DNA of 64,000 nt from Polaribacter sp. MED152. Lineage in GTDB: Bacteria; Bacteroidota; Bacteroidia; Flavobacteriales; Flavobacteriaceae. Made by a program: the position numbers and the translations under genes. The number at the start of each line of letters is the position of its first letter. The first letter of the stretch is position 1. Location: NCBI RefSeq assembly GCF_000152945.2, contig NC_020830.1:2118501-2182500 (forward strand), in the 5' to 3' direction. A model generated the notes under the pieces. That model did no database searches. It saw only the letters and a list, made by a program, of their open reading frames with translations, and was not told where the DNA came from. Shown piece after piece: positions 6,485-26,081 of the stretch.

Positions 6485-8290
6485 ATGAATACTTCTTTAG
6501 AGCTTCAAATAAAAACACTGCCTTCTTCACCAGGAGTTTATCAATATTTTGATAAAGAAGAAAAACTGATTTACGTTGGTAAAGCAAAAAATTTAAAGAA
6601 ACGAGTATCTTCTTATTTTACAAAAACACACGATAGTGGAAAAACTAGAGTGCTTGTAAAAAACATTAATACAGTAAAACATATTGTAGTTAATACAGAA
6701 ACAGATGCACTTTTATTAGAAAATAATCTAATTAAAAAATACAAACCAAAGTATAATGTACTTTTAAAAGATGATAAAACTTACCCTTGGATTTGTATTA
6801 AAAAAGAACGTTTTCCTAGAGTTTTTATGACCAGAAGAGTTATTAAAGATGGTTCAGAATATTATGGTCCATACACTTCTGTTAGAACAATTAAAGCACT
6901 ATTAGAATTAATAAAAGAACTCTACACACTTAGAACGTGTAAATACGATTTAAGCAGAGAAAAAATAAATACAGGCAAATACAAAGTTTGTTTAGAATAT
7001 CATTTAGGCAATTGTTTGGGGCCTTGTGAAGCTTTAGAAACTGAAGCCCATTATAATAATTCCATTAAAGAAATTCGAAATATTATTAAAGGTAATTTTA
7101 AAGAAAGTTTAGAAAGACTAAATACTTTGATGATGGGTTTTGCAGAAAAAATGGAGTTCGAAAAAGCCCAAAGAATTAAAGAAAAATTAGATAGGTTAAG
7201 CAATTACCAGGCAAAAAGTACCATAGTAAATCCTACTATAAATAATGTAGATGTTTTTTCGATTATTTCAGATAAAACACATGGTTATGCTAATTTTATT
7301 AAAATATCTAATGGCTCTATTATACAGTCTCACACTACAGAAATTAAGAAAAAATTAGAAGAGTCAGACAAGGAATTGTTAGAACTGTTTATTTTCGAAA
7401 TTAGACAAAGGTACAACTCAACATCACCAGAAATTTATGTTCCATTTCAAGTAAATATTGGTGAGAATGTAAAGGTTACTATACCAAAAGTAGGAGATAA
7501 AAAACGCATTGTAGAACTTTCAGAAAGAAATGCCAAATACTATAAATTAGAGCAATTAAAGCAAATTAAAATTGTAGATCCTGATAGGCATGTAAAAAGA
7601 ATTATGGCTCAAATGAAGGCAGATTTGCGCTTAAAAGAAGAGCCAAGGCATATAGAGTGTTTTGATAACTCTAACATACAAGGTACAAACCCTGTTGCAG
7701 CTTGTGTTGTTTTTAGAGATGGTAAACCTAGCAAAAAGGAGTACAGACATTATAATATAAAAACAGTAGTTGGCCCAGATGATTTTGCATCTATGGAAGA
7801 GGTTGTTTTTAGAAGATACAAAAGGTTGCTTTCGGAAGGTGAATCTTTGCCTCAACTAATTATTATTGATGGTGGTAAAGGTCAATTATCATCTGCAGTT
7901 AAAAGTTTAGAAATTTTAGGCTTAAGAGGTAAAATTGCCATTATTGGTATTGCAAAACGTTTGGAGGAAATCTATTATCCAGATGACCCAATACCTTTGT
8001 ATTTAGATAAAAAATCTGAAACCTTAAAAATCACACAGTTTTTAAGAAATGAAGCACATAGATTTGGTATTACCTTTCATAGAAACAAACGTAGTAAAAG
8101 CGCTATACAAAGTGAGTTAGAAAGTATACCAGATGTTGGTAAACAGACTATTACAACTTTATTACGTAAATTTAAGTCCGCAAAACGTGTAAAAGAAGCC
8201 AGTTTAGATGAGTTAAAAGCGGTTATTGGTAATGCAAGAGCATTAAAAGTGTACAATTTTTATCATTCAAAAAAAGAAAATGAAAAATAA
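6485..8290 (+). CDS. uvrC: Excinuclease ABC subunit C
   Basis: Makes both incisions around a DNA lesion after UvrAB loading. The 601-residue protein has the GIY-YIG nuclease domain at the N-terminus (SPGVYQYF ... IYVGKAKNLKKRVSSYF, residues about 14-45). A UVR motif follows (EKMEFEKAQRIKEKLDRL, near 220-237), then the RNase H-like 3'-side nuclease domain (IECFDNSNIQGTNPVA ... IIIDGGKGQL) and a C-terminal helix-hairpin-helix region (IPDVGKQTITTLLRKF). The ATG at 6485 matches the family N-terminus; the upstream TTG at 6479 would add only two residues. The last 11 bp overlap the following patatin gene. Confidence 0.97.
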   Translation: MNTSLELQIKTLPSSPGVYQYFDKEEKLIYVGKAKNLKKRVSSYFTKTHDSGKTRVLVKNINTVKHIVVNTETDALLLENNLIKKYKPKYNVLLKDDKTYPWICIKKERFPRVFMTRRVIKDGSEYYGPYTSVRTIKALLELIKELYTLRTCKYDLSREKINTGKYKVCLEYHLGNCLGPCEALETEAHYNNSIKEIRNIIKGNFKESLERLNTLMMGFAEKMEFEKAQRIKEKLDRLSNYQAKSTIVNPTINNVDVFSIISDKTHGYANFIKISNGSIIQSHTTEIKKKLEESDKELLELFIFEIRQRYNSTSPEIYVPFQVNIGENVKVTIPKVGDKKRIVELSERNAKYYKLEQLKQIKIVDPDRHVKRIMAQMKADLRLKEEPRHIECFDNSNIQGTNPVAACVVFRDGKPSKKEYRHYNIKTVVGPDDFASMEEVVFRRYKRLLSEGESLPQLIIIDGGKGQLSSAVKSLEILGLRGKIAIIGIAKRLEEIYYPDDPIPLYLDKKSETLKITQFLRNEAHRFGITFHRNKRSKSAIQSELESIPDVGKQTITTLLRKFKSAKRVKEASLDELKAVIGNARALKVYNFYHSKKENEK

Positions 8291-10478: not shown

Positions 10479-12725
10479 TTACACTTTAGTACTTAAATAA
10501 AACTCTTCGTAAGTTTCAAGTAAGTTCATAAGCGCTTTCATTAAATCTTTTGTTTCTAAAAGAATACTAAAGTAAAGTGTTGTGTTTTTAGGACTTGTTT
10601 CGTCTGTTCTAATTCTGGCAACTTGCTTTTCTATAGATAAAGAAACATTACTTAATAACTCTCTTTTTTGAATTAATAACGGATTTAAATCATCGAAATT
10701 ACGCTCGTTAAAAATAGTAGAAATGATACCTAAAATGGTACTCAATTCATTATTAATAAGCTTTAAATCTTTAATTTGACCTTTCTTTAAATTCTTGTGG
10801 TTGTTATTAACATGCTTAAAACTTGCTCTAGAAATATAACTTATAGATTGTGCTGAATCTTGTAAATATCCTAAAACTGAAATATAGAATTTACTCGCTT
10901 GCACAGATGTTTCATCTAACGATTTAATGAAATAGAAAACATTGTCTTTTAAATCATCAATTTCATCATTTAACTTTTCTACGTGCTTATCTGTTTTTCT
11001 AAGTTTGTTTAAATCGTGATTTGCCAAATCATTTACAACATGTGTATACAATTTTTCAATTCTGGTGGCAACTTCAGAAACGTGTCCAGAACTTTCATCA
11101 ATAACACCATTAATAGTAATTAATTCAGATCTTTCTATATATGTTTTTCTCTTTATTTCTTGCGCTTTTTTTCTATGCGCTATAGAATTCTTAGTAATTA
11201 AAGCAGCTACAACTACCAATAAAATTGGAATGAAAATAATATGTAAATGAATTAAATAAGCAACAATACCTGCAGCTACAAATGCCACTAAAGCAGTTAA
11301 AAACCAACCACCAATTACATTTAAAACCCCAGCAACTCTATATACTGCACTTTCACGACCCCAAGCTCTATCTGCTAGAGAAGTACCCATGGCTACCATA
11401 AATGTTACATAAGTGGTAGATAAAGGTAGTTTCATAGAAGTTGCTATAGAAATTAAAACACTAGCCATAACTAAGTTTACAGATGCTCTTACTAAATCAA
11501 AAGCAGGCATTTCTATAGTTTTATCATTTGGCAATTTTACGCTTGGTTTTTCAAATTTTGAGTTTATAAATGTTCTTGTTTTTTCAGGAAGCACATAATT
11601 AATACCCACATTTACAAACATGGCAAAACGCACAACTACTCTAGAAACGTTATTAGGTTGAAATTTTTCATGACCTTCACCTTGTCTAGATAAGTTAATA
11701 CCTGTTTCAATTACAGATTTTGCTTTAGAAGATGTCCATAATGTAATAACCATAATTAAACCAGCAAGTAGTAATAACCACACATTAGATTTTACTTTCG
11801 CTGCTAAACTTGCCATAGAAAAGGTTTCTGCACTTACGCCAGAAACACTCCAGGTTTCATAAGAATTTAAAGCTGCAATTGGCACTCCAATAAAGTTTAC
11901 TAAATCATTTCCTGCAAAGGCCATAGCTAGAGAAAATGTACCTATACCTATAATTAAAACAAGAATATTTAATTTAAAAATTTTGGTTAGTAGGTAGGAT
12001 AGAGCCGTCCAAAGTACAAAGCTAATAGCAATAATGCTTATGGTATTACCCTCCATTACATGAGCAATGTTTTCGTAAAAATCTGTACCCTTTAAACCTT
12101 TAATTATAATAAAATAGGTAATTGCAGTAATTGCAAAACCACCAAATAAAGAATTAATATAGGTAGGTCTGCTAGCAAAGTTAAAAGAGTATATAAGTCT
12201 AGAGAAATATTGTACAATAGCACCAACACTAAACGCAACTACAACAGAAAGTAGAATACCTAATATTATATCAGTAGCTGTGTCGTAATTAATGTATTTC
12301 CAAATAGAGGCTATTCCTTCAGCATCATTTTGTGATATTTTAATAAAAGCAATAACTACAGCAGAACCAAGCAATTCAAATACAATAGAAACTGTAGTAG
12401 AAGTTGGCATACCTAAAGAGTTAAAAAGGTCTAAGAGCAGAATGTCTGTAATCATAACTGCCATAAAAATGAACATCACATCTTGAAAAACAAACATACT
12501 TGGGTTAAAGATTCCTTTTCTGGCAACCTCCATCATTCCGCTAGAAGATACAGCACCAAAGAAAACACCAACACTGGCAATAATCATAATATTTCTTACA
12601 GAAATTGCTTTAGAACCAATAGCAGAATTTAAAAAGTTTACAGCATCATTACTAACACCTACAACTAAATCTACAATAGCTAAAGCTGCTAGAGCAACTA
12701 GCATTAACACATAAGGATCTCCCAT
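10479..12725 (-). CDS. pitA: Pit-family inorganic phosphate transporter with C-terminal PhoU-like domain
   Basis: A 748-residue inner-membrane protein. The first about 520 residues form the two inverted PiT repeats; signature segments are GVSNDAVNFLNSAIGSKA near the N-terminus and AFAGNDLVNFIGVPIAA mid-protein, with a second-half SLADRAWGRESAVYRVAG. PiT proteins import phosphate with H+ or Na+. The last about 220 residues are soluble and helical, with PhoU/DUF47-like character, and probably regulate transport. It ends only 3 bp from the convergent patatin gene. Its promoter region carries two 11-bp-spaced ATAACA repeats, which fits control by phosphate starvation. Confidence 0.93.
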   Translation of the reverse strand: MGDPYVLMLVALAALAIVDLVVGVSNDAVNFLNSAIGSKAISVRNIMIIASVGVFFGAVSSSGMMEVARKGIFNPSMFVFQDVMFIFMAVMITDILLLDLFNSLGMPTSTTVSIVFELLGSAVVIAFIKISQNDAEGIASIWKYINYDTATDIILGILLSVVVAFSVGAIVQYFSRLIYSFNFASRPTYINSLFGGFAITAITYFIIIKGLKGTDFYENIAHVMEGNTISIIAISFVLWTALSYLLTKIFKLNILVLIIGIGTFSLAMAFAGNDLVNFIGVPIAALNSYETWSVSGVSAETFSMASLAAKVKSNVWLLLLAGLIMVITLWTSSKAKSVIETGINLSRQGEGHEKFQPNNVSRVVVRFAMFVNVGINYVLPEKTRTFINSKFEKPSVKLPNDKTIEMPAFDLVRASVNLVMASVLISIATSMKLPLSTTYVTFMVAMGTSLADRAWGRESAVYRVAGVLNVIGGWFLTALVAFVAAGIVAYLIHLHIIFIPILLVVVAALITKNSIAHRKKAQEIKRKTYIERSELITINGVIDESSGHVSEVATRIEKLYTHVVNDLANHDLNKLRKTDKHVEKLNDEIDDLKDNVFYFIKSLDETSVQASKFYISVLGYLQDSAQSISYISRASFKHVNNNHKNLKKGQIKDLKLINNELSTILGIISTIFNERNFDDLNPLLIQKRELLSNVSLSIEKQVARIRTDETSPKNTTLYFSILLETKDLMKALMNLLETYEEFYLSTKV

Positions 12726-12751: not shown

Positions 12752-12796
12752 CAAAGTTAAATACACAGTAAGTTGATAATGTTATCTTAATGTTAT
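12752..12796 (-). promoter_or_regulatory. pitA promoter with two Pho-box-like repeats
   Basis: Read on the minus strand, ATAACA occurs at 12796-12791 and again at 12785-12780, exactly 11 bp apart. A perfect -7 element TAACTTTG follows at 12759-12752. The proximal repeat ends 20 bp upstream of the -7 element, where an activator would replace a poor -33 contact. The 11-bp phasing is that of PhoB/PhoP-family dimer sites. Confidence 0.6.
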
Positions 12797-12893
12797 GAAA
12801 TTTATGCCCTATTTACAGAGGTAAATTTATAATTTTTATTTCTAATGCTAAGGTTTTAAGGTGTTTAAAAATTATTTTAAACCAATTTCTTCA

Positions 12894-12972
12894 TTAACAT
12901 TTGCTTAACAGGTTTTTAACCCAAGCATAATTTACAGCTAACAATCAATTTACAGATGAGGAACTACATTTG
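12894..12972 (+). promoter_or_regulatory. Six-unit Pho-box-like array and promoter of the TonB receptor gene
   Basis: Hexamers in strict 11-bp register: TTAACA (12894), TTAACA (12905), TTAACC (12916), ATAATT (12927, degenerate), CTAACA (12938), TTTACA (12949). Ten bases after the last unit comes a perfect -7 element TACATTTG (12965-12972), and the start codon is at 12996. Tandem TTAACA-like repeats every 11 bp are the known form of Bacillus PhoP boxes and closely resemble cyanobacterial Pho boxes. I infer a PhoB-type response regulator binds here. Confidence 0.75.
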
Positions 12973-12995
12973 CAACGAAAATTTATTTACAAGAA

Positions 12996-15800
12996 ATGAA
13001 GAAAATACTATTTATAACTTTATTATGCTTAAGTCAATTTATTAATGCTCAAGAAAAGGGTACATTAAAAGGTTTACTTTCAGATAAAGAATCAAACAAT
13101 GAGCCTTTGCCATTTGCAAATGTGGTAATTAAAGGTACAACTATAGGTACAACTACAGATTTTGATGGTAAGTATACATTATCTGTCCCTGCAGGTAGTC
13201 ACATTGTAGTGTTTAGTTTTTTAGGGTATAAATCAATTGAAAAACCATTTACAATTAAAGCAGGAGAAACTGTAACTATAAATCAAATAATGTCTGCTGA
13301 AGAAGGTGTTGCTTTAGATGATGTAGTAATTAAAACAACAACTACCAAAGATAATGCTAACGCACTTTTATTAGAGCAGAAAAAAGCCACTGTAATTAAA
13401 GAGAGTATAGGTTCTCAAGAATTAGCGAAGCAAGGTGTAAGTGATGCAGCAGGTGCAGTATCAAAAATATCTGGTGTATCTAAGCAAGAAGGTTCTAGTA
13501 ACGTTTACGTGCGTGGTTTAGGAGATAGATATTTAAATACAACAATGAACGGTTTATCATTACCTTCTAATGATGTAAACAAAAAGAATATCGATTTAAA
13601 CTTATTTCAATCAGAAGTAATACAAAGCGTTTCTATTAGTAAAGCATATTCACCAGAATTTTATGGAGACTTTGCTGCAGGTAATGTAAACATTGTTTCT
13701 AAAGAATATAAAGGTGATGGTTTCTTTGATGTTGCTGTAGGTACAGGAGTAAATACTAGAGCTGCAGGTAAAGACTTTAAGAAAACTAAAGGTACAGGTC
13801 ATGTAGGTTTCTTTAGAAGATATGAGCACAACCCATTTGCACAGGTTTTATCTCATGGAATTGATCCAGAAAATGGTGGTGAACCAATTAACCTAAACAT
13901 TGGTTTAAGTGGTGGTAAATCTTTTGATTTTGGAGATGATTCACGTTTAAGCTTATATGTTACAGCATCTTTTCAAAACGGATATGAATATAGAGAAGGG
14001 CCAGCAGTAGATTTTACAAATGTATTTAAGGTAAGATACCCAACAGCTCAAGAATACGAGTACACTACAGCTACAACTGTAATGGGTAATGCACTATATA
14101 AAATTAATGATGATCATAAAGTAAAATACACTTCAATGTTCTTAAACAGTTCATCAGACCAAGTAGGGTATTTTGGTGTGAATGGTTTAGGTGAAAATAG
14201 AGATGCTATTTTAAACACAGACGAAGGCTTTTTTCAATTAAATGTACAATTTAATCAAGATTTAATCTTTGTAAATCAATTAACAGGTGAGCATGACTTT
14301 TACAATGCTACAGACGAAGATCCAGAGTTTAAATTAACTTGGGGAATTGGTTTTAACAACGTTTTCTCTCATGAGCCAGACAGAAGAAGAATTAGTTTAG
14401 AGAATTATCAATTTTCATTAGATAATGATCCTACAACAAATGCATCTTTCTATAATAACATTGTATTTGACAACCAAAGATACTTTCAAAAAATTATTGA
14501 TTCTGAATTGAACAGTAGAATTAATTTAGAGCAAGTAGTTTCTGATAATTTTAGCTTAAACTATGGTTTTAATGGAAGAAGAAAAACGCGTAATTTTGAG
14601 AATATTAGATATGGTTACGATTTTTTAACTCCAAATGTTGAAATCGCAGATCCAAATAACATAGATTCTGTTATAAATATTGAAAACTTTCGTAATGTTT
14701 ATAACACAGAAGTATTTAATTCTGTAGATCCTTCAAGATATCCTACTGCTAATTTTCCTGGAAGAAATGAAAATACATATTTTGGTAAATTAAGTGTATT
14801 TGGTGCTTCTTTAGGAGGTGTATTACAAGTAGGAGAAAAATTAACAGTTGTTCCTGGTATTCGTTTAGAGTCTTTTGAGCAGTTTATATCATATGATGTA
14901 ATTAACATCAATCCAAATGATCCTAAATTTAGAAACGCTAAAGAAACATTTTGGTTACCATCTTTAAACTTAAAATATGCTTTAAATGATGACCAAAACT
15001 TACGTTTCACATTTAGTAAAACAGTTTCTGTACCAGAATTTAAAGAAGTAGCGCCATTTGTATATGAAGGTGTAACACAAAGAATTGGTGGTAACCCAGA
15101 TTTATTAGATAACCCGTCTTTTTCAGATGTATTTAATATTGACTTAAAATACGAATGGTTTATCAATAGAGGAGAAGTATTGTCTTTAAGTGCTTTTGGT
15201 AAACAAATTAACGATCCAGTTAACTTAGTTATTGCAAGTGATGCAACAGGTGTACAACGTTATTTTAGAACAGGAGATAAAGCAACTATTTTAGGAGTAG
15301 AATTAGAAGCAAGAAAAAACTTAATCACAGACGAAGATGATAATGCTCAACTTACTGCTGGTTTCAACTTTACATATATGCATACTGAGCAAGATTTATA
15401 TGCCAATGTATCTGGAAGTGCTTTTACTACATCATTCAACAGAGCTACAGATCAGTTACAAGGTGCGTCACCAATCTTGGTAAATGCAAACATAAACTAT
15501 AGCCCAACAAAATGGGAAAACTACAAACCAACTGCAACATTAGTATTCTCTTATTTTGCTGATAGAATTGATGCATTAGGATCAGGACAGATTGGTAATA
15601 TCGTAGAAAAATCTGTACCAACCTTAGATTTTGTTTGGAAAAACAATATTGGAGAAAACATAGAAATCAACTTTAGTGCAAGCAATATTTTAGATCCAAG
15701 AATAGAAAGAGTAAGAGAAGGTACACCTTTAGGAGACATCGTTTTATCTGGATATAATAGAGGTAGTAATATTAGCTTAGGATTCAATTATAAATTTTAA
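12996..15800 (+). CDS. TonB-dependent outer-membrane receptor, predicted phosphate-starvation regulated
   Basis: A 934-residue protein. A signal peptide (ending INAQ) is followed by a carboxypeptidase-D-like beta-sandwich (residues about 22-105, with PFANVVIKGTTIGTTTDFDGKY). A plug domain follows (about 125-240, with SNVYVRGLGDRYLNTTMNGL) and then a 22-strand-type barrel ending in SLGFNYKF. Such receptors import ligands too large or scarce for porins using TonB energy. There is no SusD partner; instead a lipoprotein gene follows after 33 bp. The promoter has the Pho-like array and the gene is divergent from pitA, so a phosphorus compound is the likely ligand, which is an inference. The substrate itself cannot be read from the sequence. 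Confidence 0.9.
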   Translation: MKKILFITLLCLSQFINAQEKGTLKGLLSDKESNNEPLPFANVVIKGTTIGTTTDFDGKYTLSVPAGSHIVVFSFLGYKSIEKPFTIKAGETVTINQIMSAEEGVALDDVVIKTTTTKDNANALLLEQKKATVIKESIGSQELAKQGVSDAAGAVSKISGVSKQEGSSNVYVRGLGDRYLNTTMNGLSLPSNDVNKKNIDLNLFQSEVIQSVSISKAYSPEFYGDFAAGNVNIVSKEYKGDGFFDVAVGTGVNTRAAGKDFKKTKGTGHVGFFRRYEHNPFAQVLSHGIDPENGGEPINLNIGLSGGKSFDFGDDSRLSLYVTASFQNGYEYREGPAVDFTNVFKVRYPTAQEYEYTTATTVMGNALYKINDDHKVKYTSMFLNSSSDQVGYFGVNGLGENRDAILNTDEGFFQLNVQFNQDLIFVNQLTGEHDFYNATDEDPEFKLTWGIGFNNVFSHEPDRRRISLENYQFSLDNDPTTNASFYNNIVFDNQRYFQKIIDSELNSRINLEQVVSDNFSLNYGFNGRRKTRNFENIRYGYDFLTPNVEIADPNNIDSVINIENFRNVYNTEVFNSVDPSRYPTANFPGRNENTYFGKLSVFGASLGGVLQVGEKLTVVPGIRLESFEQFISYDVININPNDPKFRNAKETFWLPSLNLKYALNDDQNLRFTFSKTVSVPEFKEVAPFVYEGVTQRIGGNPDLLDNPSFSDVFNIDLKYEWFINRGEVLSLSAFGKQINDPVNLVIASDATGVQRYFRTGDKATILGVELEARKNLITDEDDNAQLTAGFNFTYMHTEQDLYANVSGSAFTTSFNRATDQLQGASPILVNANINYSPTKWENYKPTATLVFSYFADRIDALGSGQIGNIVEKSVPTLDFVWKNNIGENIEINFSASNILDPRIERVREGTPLGDIVLSGYNRGSNISLGFNYKF

Positions 15801-15833: not shown

Positions 15834-17066
15834 ATGAATAAATTAAACTTTAGAACAATGAGAAATAAATTTTTATTTGCAATGACAATTGCAGCAGCCT
15901 TATTCACGTCTTGTGGAGAAGATGGTACAGCTGATATCGTAATTAACGATAATAGTGTTACAAACAACACAACAAACAATACGAATGGTGGTGGAAACAC
16001 AGGAAACCAAGGACAAACAATTGAGTTAAATGGTACTTACACTACTAACTTAACTTTAGATGCTGCAAACACGTATACTATTACTGGACCTACAGTTATC
16101 GAAGATGGTGCTACTTTAACAATACCTGCAGGTATGGTTATTAAAGCAGCAGCTACTGGTGCAGATGTATATTTAGCAGTAGCTCAAGGAGGTAAAATTA
16201 TTGCAGAAGGTACTTCTTCTCAGCCAATTATTTTTACTTCTGGTGCAAACACACCTAATTCTGGAGATTGGGGTGGTTTAATTTTATTAGGTAAAGCACC
16301 TGTAAATTCAGTAACAGGTAGTGCAACTGCAACATCAGAAATAGGAAACTTACCTTATGGTGGTTCTGAAGCTGATGACAATTCAGGAACTTTACGTTAT
16401 GTAAGAGTTGAATATTCAGGAGGTAAAGCATCTGGTCAGTCAGAAAACAACGGTTTTTCTTTCTATGGTGTAGGAAATGGAACTATTGTAGAGTACATTC
16501 AAATGTTTGAAGGTGCAGATGATGGTATTGAATTTTTCGGAGGTACTGTAAACGTATCTAATTTATCTGTAGTAAACTCTCAAGATGATTCAATTGACTG
16601 GACAGAAGGTTACACAGGTACTATTACAGATGCTTATGTTAAGCATGGTGTAAGTCATGATAAAGGTATTGAGGCAGATGGTTACAATACAGATGTAGGT
16701 AACAACTCTAACCCAATATACTTCTCTAAGCCAACTGTAACTAACTTAACTATTGTAGGTTTAGGTTCAGGTACTGGTAATGAAGCTATTCGTTTAAGAG
16801 CTGGTACTCAAGGTATCTTTTCTAACGTAAAATTAGAAGGTTTTGCTGAAGGATTTGACTTAGATGGAGATTCTGGAGATAACCCAACTGGAGCTGGTGT
16901 TTTAAGTGGAGATTTAAATGTAAACTCTGTTATTTTTGTAGACGTTACTGTTAACATGAAAAACGATACAGGAGAAACTTTTACAGAAGCAGATTTCTTA
17001 ACTGTAGATCCAAATGCTACAGGTACAGATTATGCAACTTGGGGTGCAGGATGGACAAGATCGTAA
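15834..17066 (+). CDS. Secreted lipoprotein with right-handed beta-helix-like repeats
   Basis: A 410-residue protein with a lipoprotein signal (AALFTSC lipobox) and a long Asn/Thr/Gly-rich linker (about residues 38-62). The mature domain has repeated short strands separated by Gly/Asp turns (ENNGFSFYGVGNGTIVEYIQ, FEGADDGIEFFGGTVNVSNLSV). This pattern suggests a parallel beta-helix. A second ATG at 15858 gives a more typical signal peptide and may be the true start. The gene lies 33 bp after the TonB receptor and before a strong terminator, so the two form an operon. I infer it is a surface-exposed accessory protein of the receptor. Homologues are sometimes mislabelled as transporters; nothing here supports that. 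Confidence 0.8.
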   Translation: MNKLNFRTMRNKFLFAMTIAAALFTSCGEDGTADIVINDNSVTNNTTNNTNGGGNTGNQGQTIELNGTYTTNLTLDAANTYTITGPTVIEDGATLTIPAGMVIKAAATGADVYLAVAQGGKIIAEGTSSQPIIFTSGANTPNSGDWGGLILLGKAPVNSVTGSATATSEIGNLPYGGSEADDNSGTLRYVRVEYSGGKASGQSENNGFSFYGVGNGTIVEYIQMFEGADDGIEFFGGTVNVSNLSVVNSQDDSIDWTEGYTGTITDAYVKHGVSHDKGIEADGYNTDVGNNSNPIYFSKPTVTNLTIVGLGSGTGNEAIRLRAGTQGIFSNVKLEGFAEGFDLDGDSGDNPTGAGVLSGDLNVNSVIFVDVTVNMKNDTGETFTEADFLTVDPNATGTDYATWGAGWTRS

Positions 17067-25941: not shown

Positions 25942-26081
25942 TTTTTTAACTTTCAGAACATTATTAAAGTGTTTAAGAACATTTTTTATTAGATATACTT
26001 AAATTAACCTAACTTTAACCAAAGTATAATTTCTATTTAATAATGTTGGGGGATATTATAACTAATTAAAATTATACCTAT

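Follow-up and report, generated by a model that had tools for sequence, protein, structure and literature searches.

A predicted double Pho-box promoter between pitA and a TonB-dependent receptor gene in Polaribacter sp. MED152

In the flavobacterium Polaribacter sp. MED152, 270 bp separate pitA from a TonB-dependent receptor gene, and two facing operators lie inside this interval. We consider with good confidence that the intergenic region is a double flavobacterial Pho-box promoter, with PhoB as the predicted binder. The region lies in a 64-kb window, the whole stretch of DNA that was analysed, which comprises bases 2118501-2182500 of the 2.96-Mb chromosome. The array facing the receptor gene is very probably the landing site of the flavobacterial phosphate-starvation regulator, as it is kept, in the same promoter position, before phosphate genes in many flavobacteria.

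The receptor-facing operator (12894..12954, plus strand) consists of six hexamers in an 11-bp register: TTAACA at 12894 and 12905, TTAACC at 12916, a weak ATAATT at 12927, CTAACA at 12938 and TTTACA at 12949. It is followed by TACATTTG (12965..12972, plus strand), a putative -7 promoter element of the receptor operon, proposed from its sequence and from the TTTG distance in orthologues. A sequence-only reading had reported TTAACA-type hexamers every 11 bp with a weak copy at 12927, and all six positions were found again when the sequence was re-read. The six units have 6 mismatches of 36 to TTAACA, a count reached by 0/5000 dinucleotide shuffles of the 270-nt intergenic region, among which the lowest was 8. 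Spacings of 8 to 14 bp other than 11 gave 14-18 mismatches whichever strand was read. At 11 bp the opposite strand gave 13, which was also the count of the best six-unit array elsewhere in the window (both strands, outside 12820-12980). The six-unit 11-bp register thus exceeds chance, and its tandem direct repeats have the arrangement expected of a Pho box. A sequence model of the orthologous promoters, built from 42 sequences with the window's own array among them, scored 47.2 bits at the receptor array. The window's next-best match, at 13.3 bits, is a weak TTAAC-like array at 25999-26040, upstream of a Kdo-transferase gene.

Scanning of named genomes yielded 80 orthologous receptor loci; the closest named relative among those fetched was a Polaribacter MAG, with a receptor 90% identical to that of the window. 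A seeded alignment of the window with 63 of the loci (64 upstream regions) showed TAAC as the core of units 1, 2 and 5, each of its bases being conserved at 90-98%. Unit 4 was TAAC or TAAT, unit 6 was TTTACA and unit 3 was degenerate save for one A. The spacings between TAAC copies were also counted without alignment in the upstream regions of the 80 loci. An exact 11-bp TAAC pair was present in 71/79 receptor upstream regions. Of the other spacings, 22 bp (two steps) was seen in 56% of the receptor regions, 19 bp in 28%, and 6-10, 12-18, 20, 21 and 23-25 bp in 0-6%. When the test was split by ORF-finder classes, the 11-bp spacing was found in 10/21 separated pitA regions and in 24/378 regions of "other" genes. 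Of these 24 matches, 13 belonged to OprP porins, out of 41 OprP in the set, and 11 to small ORFs resembling the receptor. On the sense strand of unrelated upstream regions at the same loci, the pair occurred in 1/322, and this sole match is an ORF resembling the receptor that fell slightly short of the threshold. A small ORF, of about 130 aa and homologous to part of the receptor, lies between the array and the full receptor gene in 11 loci (L046, L052, L055, L056, L058, L069, L074, L093, L100, L108 and L109).

The operator facing pitA (12780..12796, minus strand) consists of two ATAACA units exactly 11 bp apart, the complements of 12780-12785 and 12791-12796. The two copies that the sequence-only reading had placed towards pitA were thus recovered on the minus strand; the putative -7 promoter element of pitA, TAACTTTG (12752..12759, minus strand), falls just beyond the interval given in that reading and is proposed from its sequence and from a TTTG 29 nt from the second TAAC. 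When the starts of pitA were assigned manually, an 11-bp TAAC pair was present in 41/43 pitA upstream regions, with the consensus ATAACATT...TAACATT. It was also kept at loci where pitA lies downstream of the receptor gene rather than divergent from it, so the pair on the pitA side is an independent conserved feature.

Both operators keep a fixed distance to a downstream TAnnTTTG, which we take to be the Bacteroidota -7 element. The distance from the TAAC of unit 5 to TTTG was 29 nt in 61/65 of the receptor promoters scored, and in 35/41 of the pitA regions having the pair TTTG likewise lay 29 nt from its second TAAC. The last TAAC of the OprP arrays was 18 nt from TTTG in 11/13, exactly one unit nearer, and all three are therefore in one helical phase to the -7 element. 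The window's own distances are 30 nt on the receptor side (unit 5) and 29 nt on the pitA side. The repeats of the receptor, pitA and OprP thus hold a constant phase just upstream of the -10/-7 element, as is expected of Pho boxes.

The pitA gene (10479..12725, minus strand) encodes an inorganic phosphate transporter of 748 aa (Pfam PHO4, 103 bits). The TonB-dependent receptor (12996..15800, plus strand; 934 aa) has the Pfam CarbopepD_reg_2, plug and barrel domains and scored 151.6 bits with TIGR01782 (TonB-Xanth-Caul), below the cut-off of 310. It is followed by a gene for a putative surface lipoprotein (15834..17066, plus strand) resembling F. johnsoniae FII and Caulobacter ElpS, with a predicted parallel beta-helix. 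This order, a TonB receptor and then a beta-helix lipoprotein without a Pfam family, is that of the PUSIV receptor/FII module, and the lipoprotein gene follows the receptor gene in 77/80 loci. The available part of a study of F. johnsoniae suggests a beta-helix fold for its FI/FII lipoproteins (PMC8115612), and a receptor/lipoprotein pair of similar kind, Cc0171/ElpS, is described for Caulobacter in the text available of PMC2996285. A pitA homologue was detected by tblastn in 48/80 loci, downstream of the receptor gene in 44/80 and divergent, as in the window, in 4/80. An OprP gene often sits between those of the lipoprotein and pitA (Pfam Porin_O_P in the two tested), and at loci L033 and L036 it separates pitA from the receptor gene. 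No match to OprP (PF07396) was found in this genome, and loss of OprP may have put pitA and its own pair beside the receptor gene.

Strong induction of the matching module by Pi starvation has been measured, in the literature found, in F. johnsoniae only. At Pi depletion, according to Table 1 of the available text of PMC8115612, transcripts of the PhoBR/PUSIV locus changed 8.02-fold (receptor), 9.91-fold (FII lipoprotein) and 3.06-fold (PhoB). At locus L083 the gene order GT28-phoR-phoB-receptor-lipoprotein, GT28 being a glycosyltransferase, matches that of Fjoh_0541-0546 apart from OprP (Fjoh_0542). The PUSIV/PhoBR locus (Fjoh_0541-0549) is thus like L083 in its order of GT28, PhoR, PhoB, TonB receptor and beta-helix lipoprotein, OprP apart, and unlike the window, where phoBR lies elsewhere and pitA is divergent instead.

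In the mechanism that we propose, phosphate starvation would cause the PhoR-PhoB two-component system to phosphorylate PhoB, which would bind head to tail with one monomer per 11-bp TAACATTnnnn unit. The -33 element of Bacteroidota is TTG-like. The units at the receptor promoter, up to six in number, would extend to the -33 region; there TTTACA, the last of them, would replace the -33 element, and the PhoB array would bring RNA polymerase to the TAnnTTTG element. The single pair at pitA would act in the same helical phase, one unit farther from the promoter. We infer PhoB as the binder and activation as the effect.

For pitA, we lean towards activation rather than repression. A rather doubtful alternative places PhoB on both sides with the receptor gene activated and pitA repressed, the carrier being switched off in starvation. 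PhoB represses a Pit carrier in E. coli, and pitA has only a pair, without the promoter-proximal unit 6 found in the receptor and OprP arrays. Moreover, pitA is not listed in Table 1 in the available text of the F. johnsoniae study (PMC8115612). However, the pair does not cover the start site: it is placed upstream of TTTG, in phase with receptor units 4-5, which argues against this alternative.

The genome encodes a PhoB regulator (L156:5976-6665) in an operon with a PhoR-type kinase. PhoB was its best NCBIfam match, with scores below the curated PhoB equivalog cut-offs (TIGR02154, 221.6 of 296.2; NF053854, 208 of 270). The partner kinase (346 aa) likewise had PnpS/PhoR as its best family, under the cut-off. 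A PhoB homologue was found at E 1e-60 or better in 142/149 genomes of the family. In 18/80 loci a homologue 75-79% identical adjoins the receptor gene, the phoB-phoR operon being directly divergent from it across the array. An operon with a PhoR-type kinase and orthologues beside phosphate genes are both expected of a PhoB. The genome's own phoBR lies away from the window and is divergent from the gene of a T9SS lamin-tail protein. The region between phoB and that gene (L156:6660-6853) contains TTAACA/TTAATC units at 6724, 6735, 6768 and 6779, in one 11-bp register by eye. Judged by sequence, these four units are likely to be an autoregulatory or divergent operator of phoB; the three-unit score of the region is low (2.7).

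Across the family, the array recurs at phoB and, in part, at other phosphate genes. Of the 30 best-scoring phoB loci fetched, 27 contained a TAAC pair at 11 bp directed away from phoB; in these 30 loci the divergent gene opposite phoB is a homologue of the window receptor in 10 and of the lipoprotein in 3. Three-unit scores of at least 10 at 11 bp were reached by phoB in 25/30 best loci, and by only 0-2/30 at 8, 9, 10, 12, 13 and 14 bp. For plcP, 8/30 reached at least 10 at 11 bp and 0-1 at other spacings; the median was 8.8 at 11 bp versus -3.0 to -0.3 at other spacings, and strict pairs occurred in 7/30. Scores of at least 9.9 at 11 bp were found for 4/12 pstS genes (0 at 9, 10, 12 and 13 bp), and scores of at least 10 for 5/26 PhoX-family genes. 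As expected of a Pho box, the array thus stands before several phosphate-acquisition genes and at the regulator's own locus, the recurrence being partial for OprP, plcP, pstS and the PhoX family. The proposal of the sequence-only reading that a PhoB-like regulator activates both genes is strengthened in that the 11-bp repeats are of the Pho-box kind, precede other phosphate genes across the family and occur at phoB; PhoB binding and the activation of pitA we still infer.

Similar pairs were also found at a gene that is no phosphate gene. The regions upstream of moxR (L181:1501-1582 and loci L248-L277) contained an 11-bp TAAC pair of the TTTTTAACCAATtaTTAACAgc type in 30/30 genomes, with TTTG 29 nt away in 22/30. 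Since moxR has the same spacing and phase, spacing and phase alone cannot identify PhoB. The flanks differ: TTTTTAACCAATT at moxR (TTTTTAACCAATtaTTAACAgc sites) versus the ATAACATT type at pitA, OprP, the receptor gene and phoB, with each class consistent over many genomes. The accessible text on a Riemerella regulator named PhoP reports a DAP-seq motif around 579/583 peaks, with TTTAACA as the most conserved letters, and binding in EMSA to moxR, a TonB receptor and others (PMC9603813). The flavobacterial arrays resemble these Riemerella sites in the TTAAC core and in that moxR is a target, with the 11-bp spacing and 29-nt phase in the genomes compared. They are unlike them in that moxR has a pair only, with TTTAACC flanks instead of ATAACATT.

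The repeats of the window might accordingly be sites of an RprY-like regulator of the OmpR family, probably the Riemerella "PhoP", responding to envelope or oxidative stress, instead of PhoB; we regard this as improbable. Apart from the TTTAACA motif and the moxR pairs, it draws on peptides encoded by the Riemerella PhoPR primers given in the available part of PMC5399024. These are nearest to the L158 kinase/regulator pair of this genome (best family RprY, under the cut-off), with 17/26 matching residues compared with 13 for PhoBR and 12 for the L157 pair, which is a lean. However, the TTTTTAACCAATtaTTAACAgc flanks at moxR are unlike the ATAACATT-type repeats, and the arrays stand at phoB in most of the 30 loci and before some pstS and plcP genes. 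According to the same partly available source, pstS goes up, not down, in a Riemerella phoPR mutant (PMC5399024), so the Riemerella PhoP is no activator of pstS. If the Riemerella PhoP were instead the PhoB orthologue, its TTTAACA motif would favour PhoB. For the window, PhoB is thus preferred: the context is one of phosphate genes, arrays also stand at phoB, and the arrays are longer.

The moxR pairs, the Riemerella PhoP motif, the lean of the peptides towards L158 and the rise of pstS together indicate that TTAAC pairs at 11 bp are probably also read by a second regulator of the OmpR family. The Riemerella "PhoPR" may be RprXY-like rather than PhoBR, in which case the name would be misleading. 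A further array, of GTTAAC units at 10 bp, was found at L157-type loci (21/30 sense, 26/30 antisense; 0/30 at 11 bp). It lies between the gene of a 534-aa kinase and those of two proteins that look GLPGLI-like by eye (L157:7840-7870 and loci L278-L307), and points to a possible third regulator with one bp less spacing. We tentatively suggest, as an idea we hold less likely than its opposite, that one operator grammar, in which TTAAC units recur every 11 bp and TTTG lies 29 nt from the last pair, serves at least two OmpR-family regulators. PhoB would read long arrays with ATAACATT flanks and the Riemerella-type "PhoP" a moxR-type pair with TTTAACCAATT flanks, while the third (L157) would use the 10-bp GTTAAC array. 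If so, specificity would come from the flanks, the number of units and one bp of spacing, which would offer a route for cross-talk between phosphate and envelope stress.

Genome-wide enrichment of the repeat had been set beforehand as a test of the sequence-only reading, and its outcome was mixed. Raw counts in this genome were below those of the reversed control: TTAACA-N5-TTAACA with up to 1 mismatch occurred 92 times versus 131, and other two-unit patterns 26 versus 39 and 85 versus 117. An excess within this one genome was seen only in the promoter-phase subset: 7 of those 26 matches had the one predicted length out of 17 (P 0.0006 if the lengths are equally likely). Without pitA, this was 6/25 (P 0.003, all 17 lengths again assumed equally likely). 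Besides pitA, the subset contains a second TonB receptor, moxR, a peptidase-like gene and others without a link to phosphate, one of them intragenic. The expected recurrence therefore appeared in the promoter phase and in the relatives, and not in the raw counts. A search of the genome with the sequence model revealed no second strong array among the 150 of 5967 candidates scored. An exact TTAACA-N5-TTAACA at L005 (genome 1848891-1848907) ties with the window array over four units (4 mismatches). At L160:4537-4609 (genome about 2101536-2101608), a TAACATT-N4-TAAC pair with TTTG exactly 29 nt on precedes the gene of a TonB receptor of 867 aa; this receptor, 30 kb from the window array, is predicted to be a second phosphate-regulated one. 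A chance register in AT-rich DNA would fit the genome's pair counts, which do not exceed those of the reversed control, but it has a negligible probability and is refuted by the conservation in orthologous receptor and pitA regions, besides the shuffles.

Tandem 11-nt Pho boxes are known from other phyla. The E. coli PhoB box is a direct repeat of two 11-nt units with the core CTGTCAT, located some 10 bp before the -10 element, and the cyanobacterial SphR box has three or more 8-bp repeats, CTTAACCT, with 3-bp linkers, as given in the available parts of PMC4415409 and PMC1906773 for the former and of PMC1906773 for the latter. The flavobacterial array is like the former in its head-to-tail 11-nt units that end just upstream of the -10/-7 element, and unlike it in core sequence, unit number and the type of sigma-factor promoter. 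With the SphR box it shares the TTAAC core, the 11-bp register, three or more units and a place upstream of phosphate genes. It differs from the SphR box in having TAACATTnnnn units, up to six of them with unit 3 degenerate, a fixed position to the Bacteroidota TAnnTTTG promoter, and OprP, the TonB receptor/beta-helix lipoprotein and pitA as targets. What would be new is a TAACATT-type box tied to the Bacteroidota promoter, in a six-unit form at the receptor gene and a two-unit form at pitA.

A literature search, in part very broad, returned no Pho-box consensus for Bacteroidota in the texts available. Among these texts, B. fragilis PhoB is reported to bind the pstC promoter in EMSA, with no motif given (PMC3547664), and unspecified putative Pho boxes are mentioned near plcP (PMC4796936). 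The available text of PMC8115612 gives no cis element, and the word "promoter" has 0 matches in its main text. Flavobacteria are major degraders in sea and soil, and in the literature found, as far as it was accessible, their phosphate response is catalogued without a cis element. A consensus with a fixed promoter phase would make the Pho regulon predictable from genome sequence in flavobacteria, and would allow a clean test of how the TTAAC arrays are shared out among several similar response regulators.
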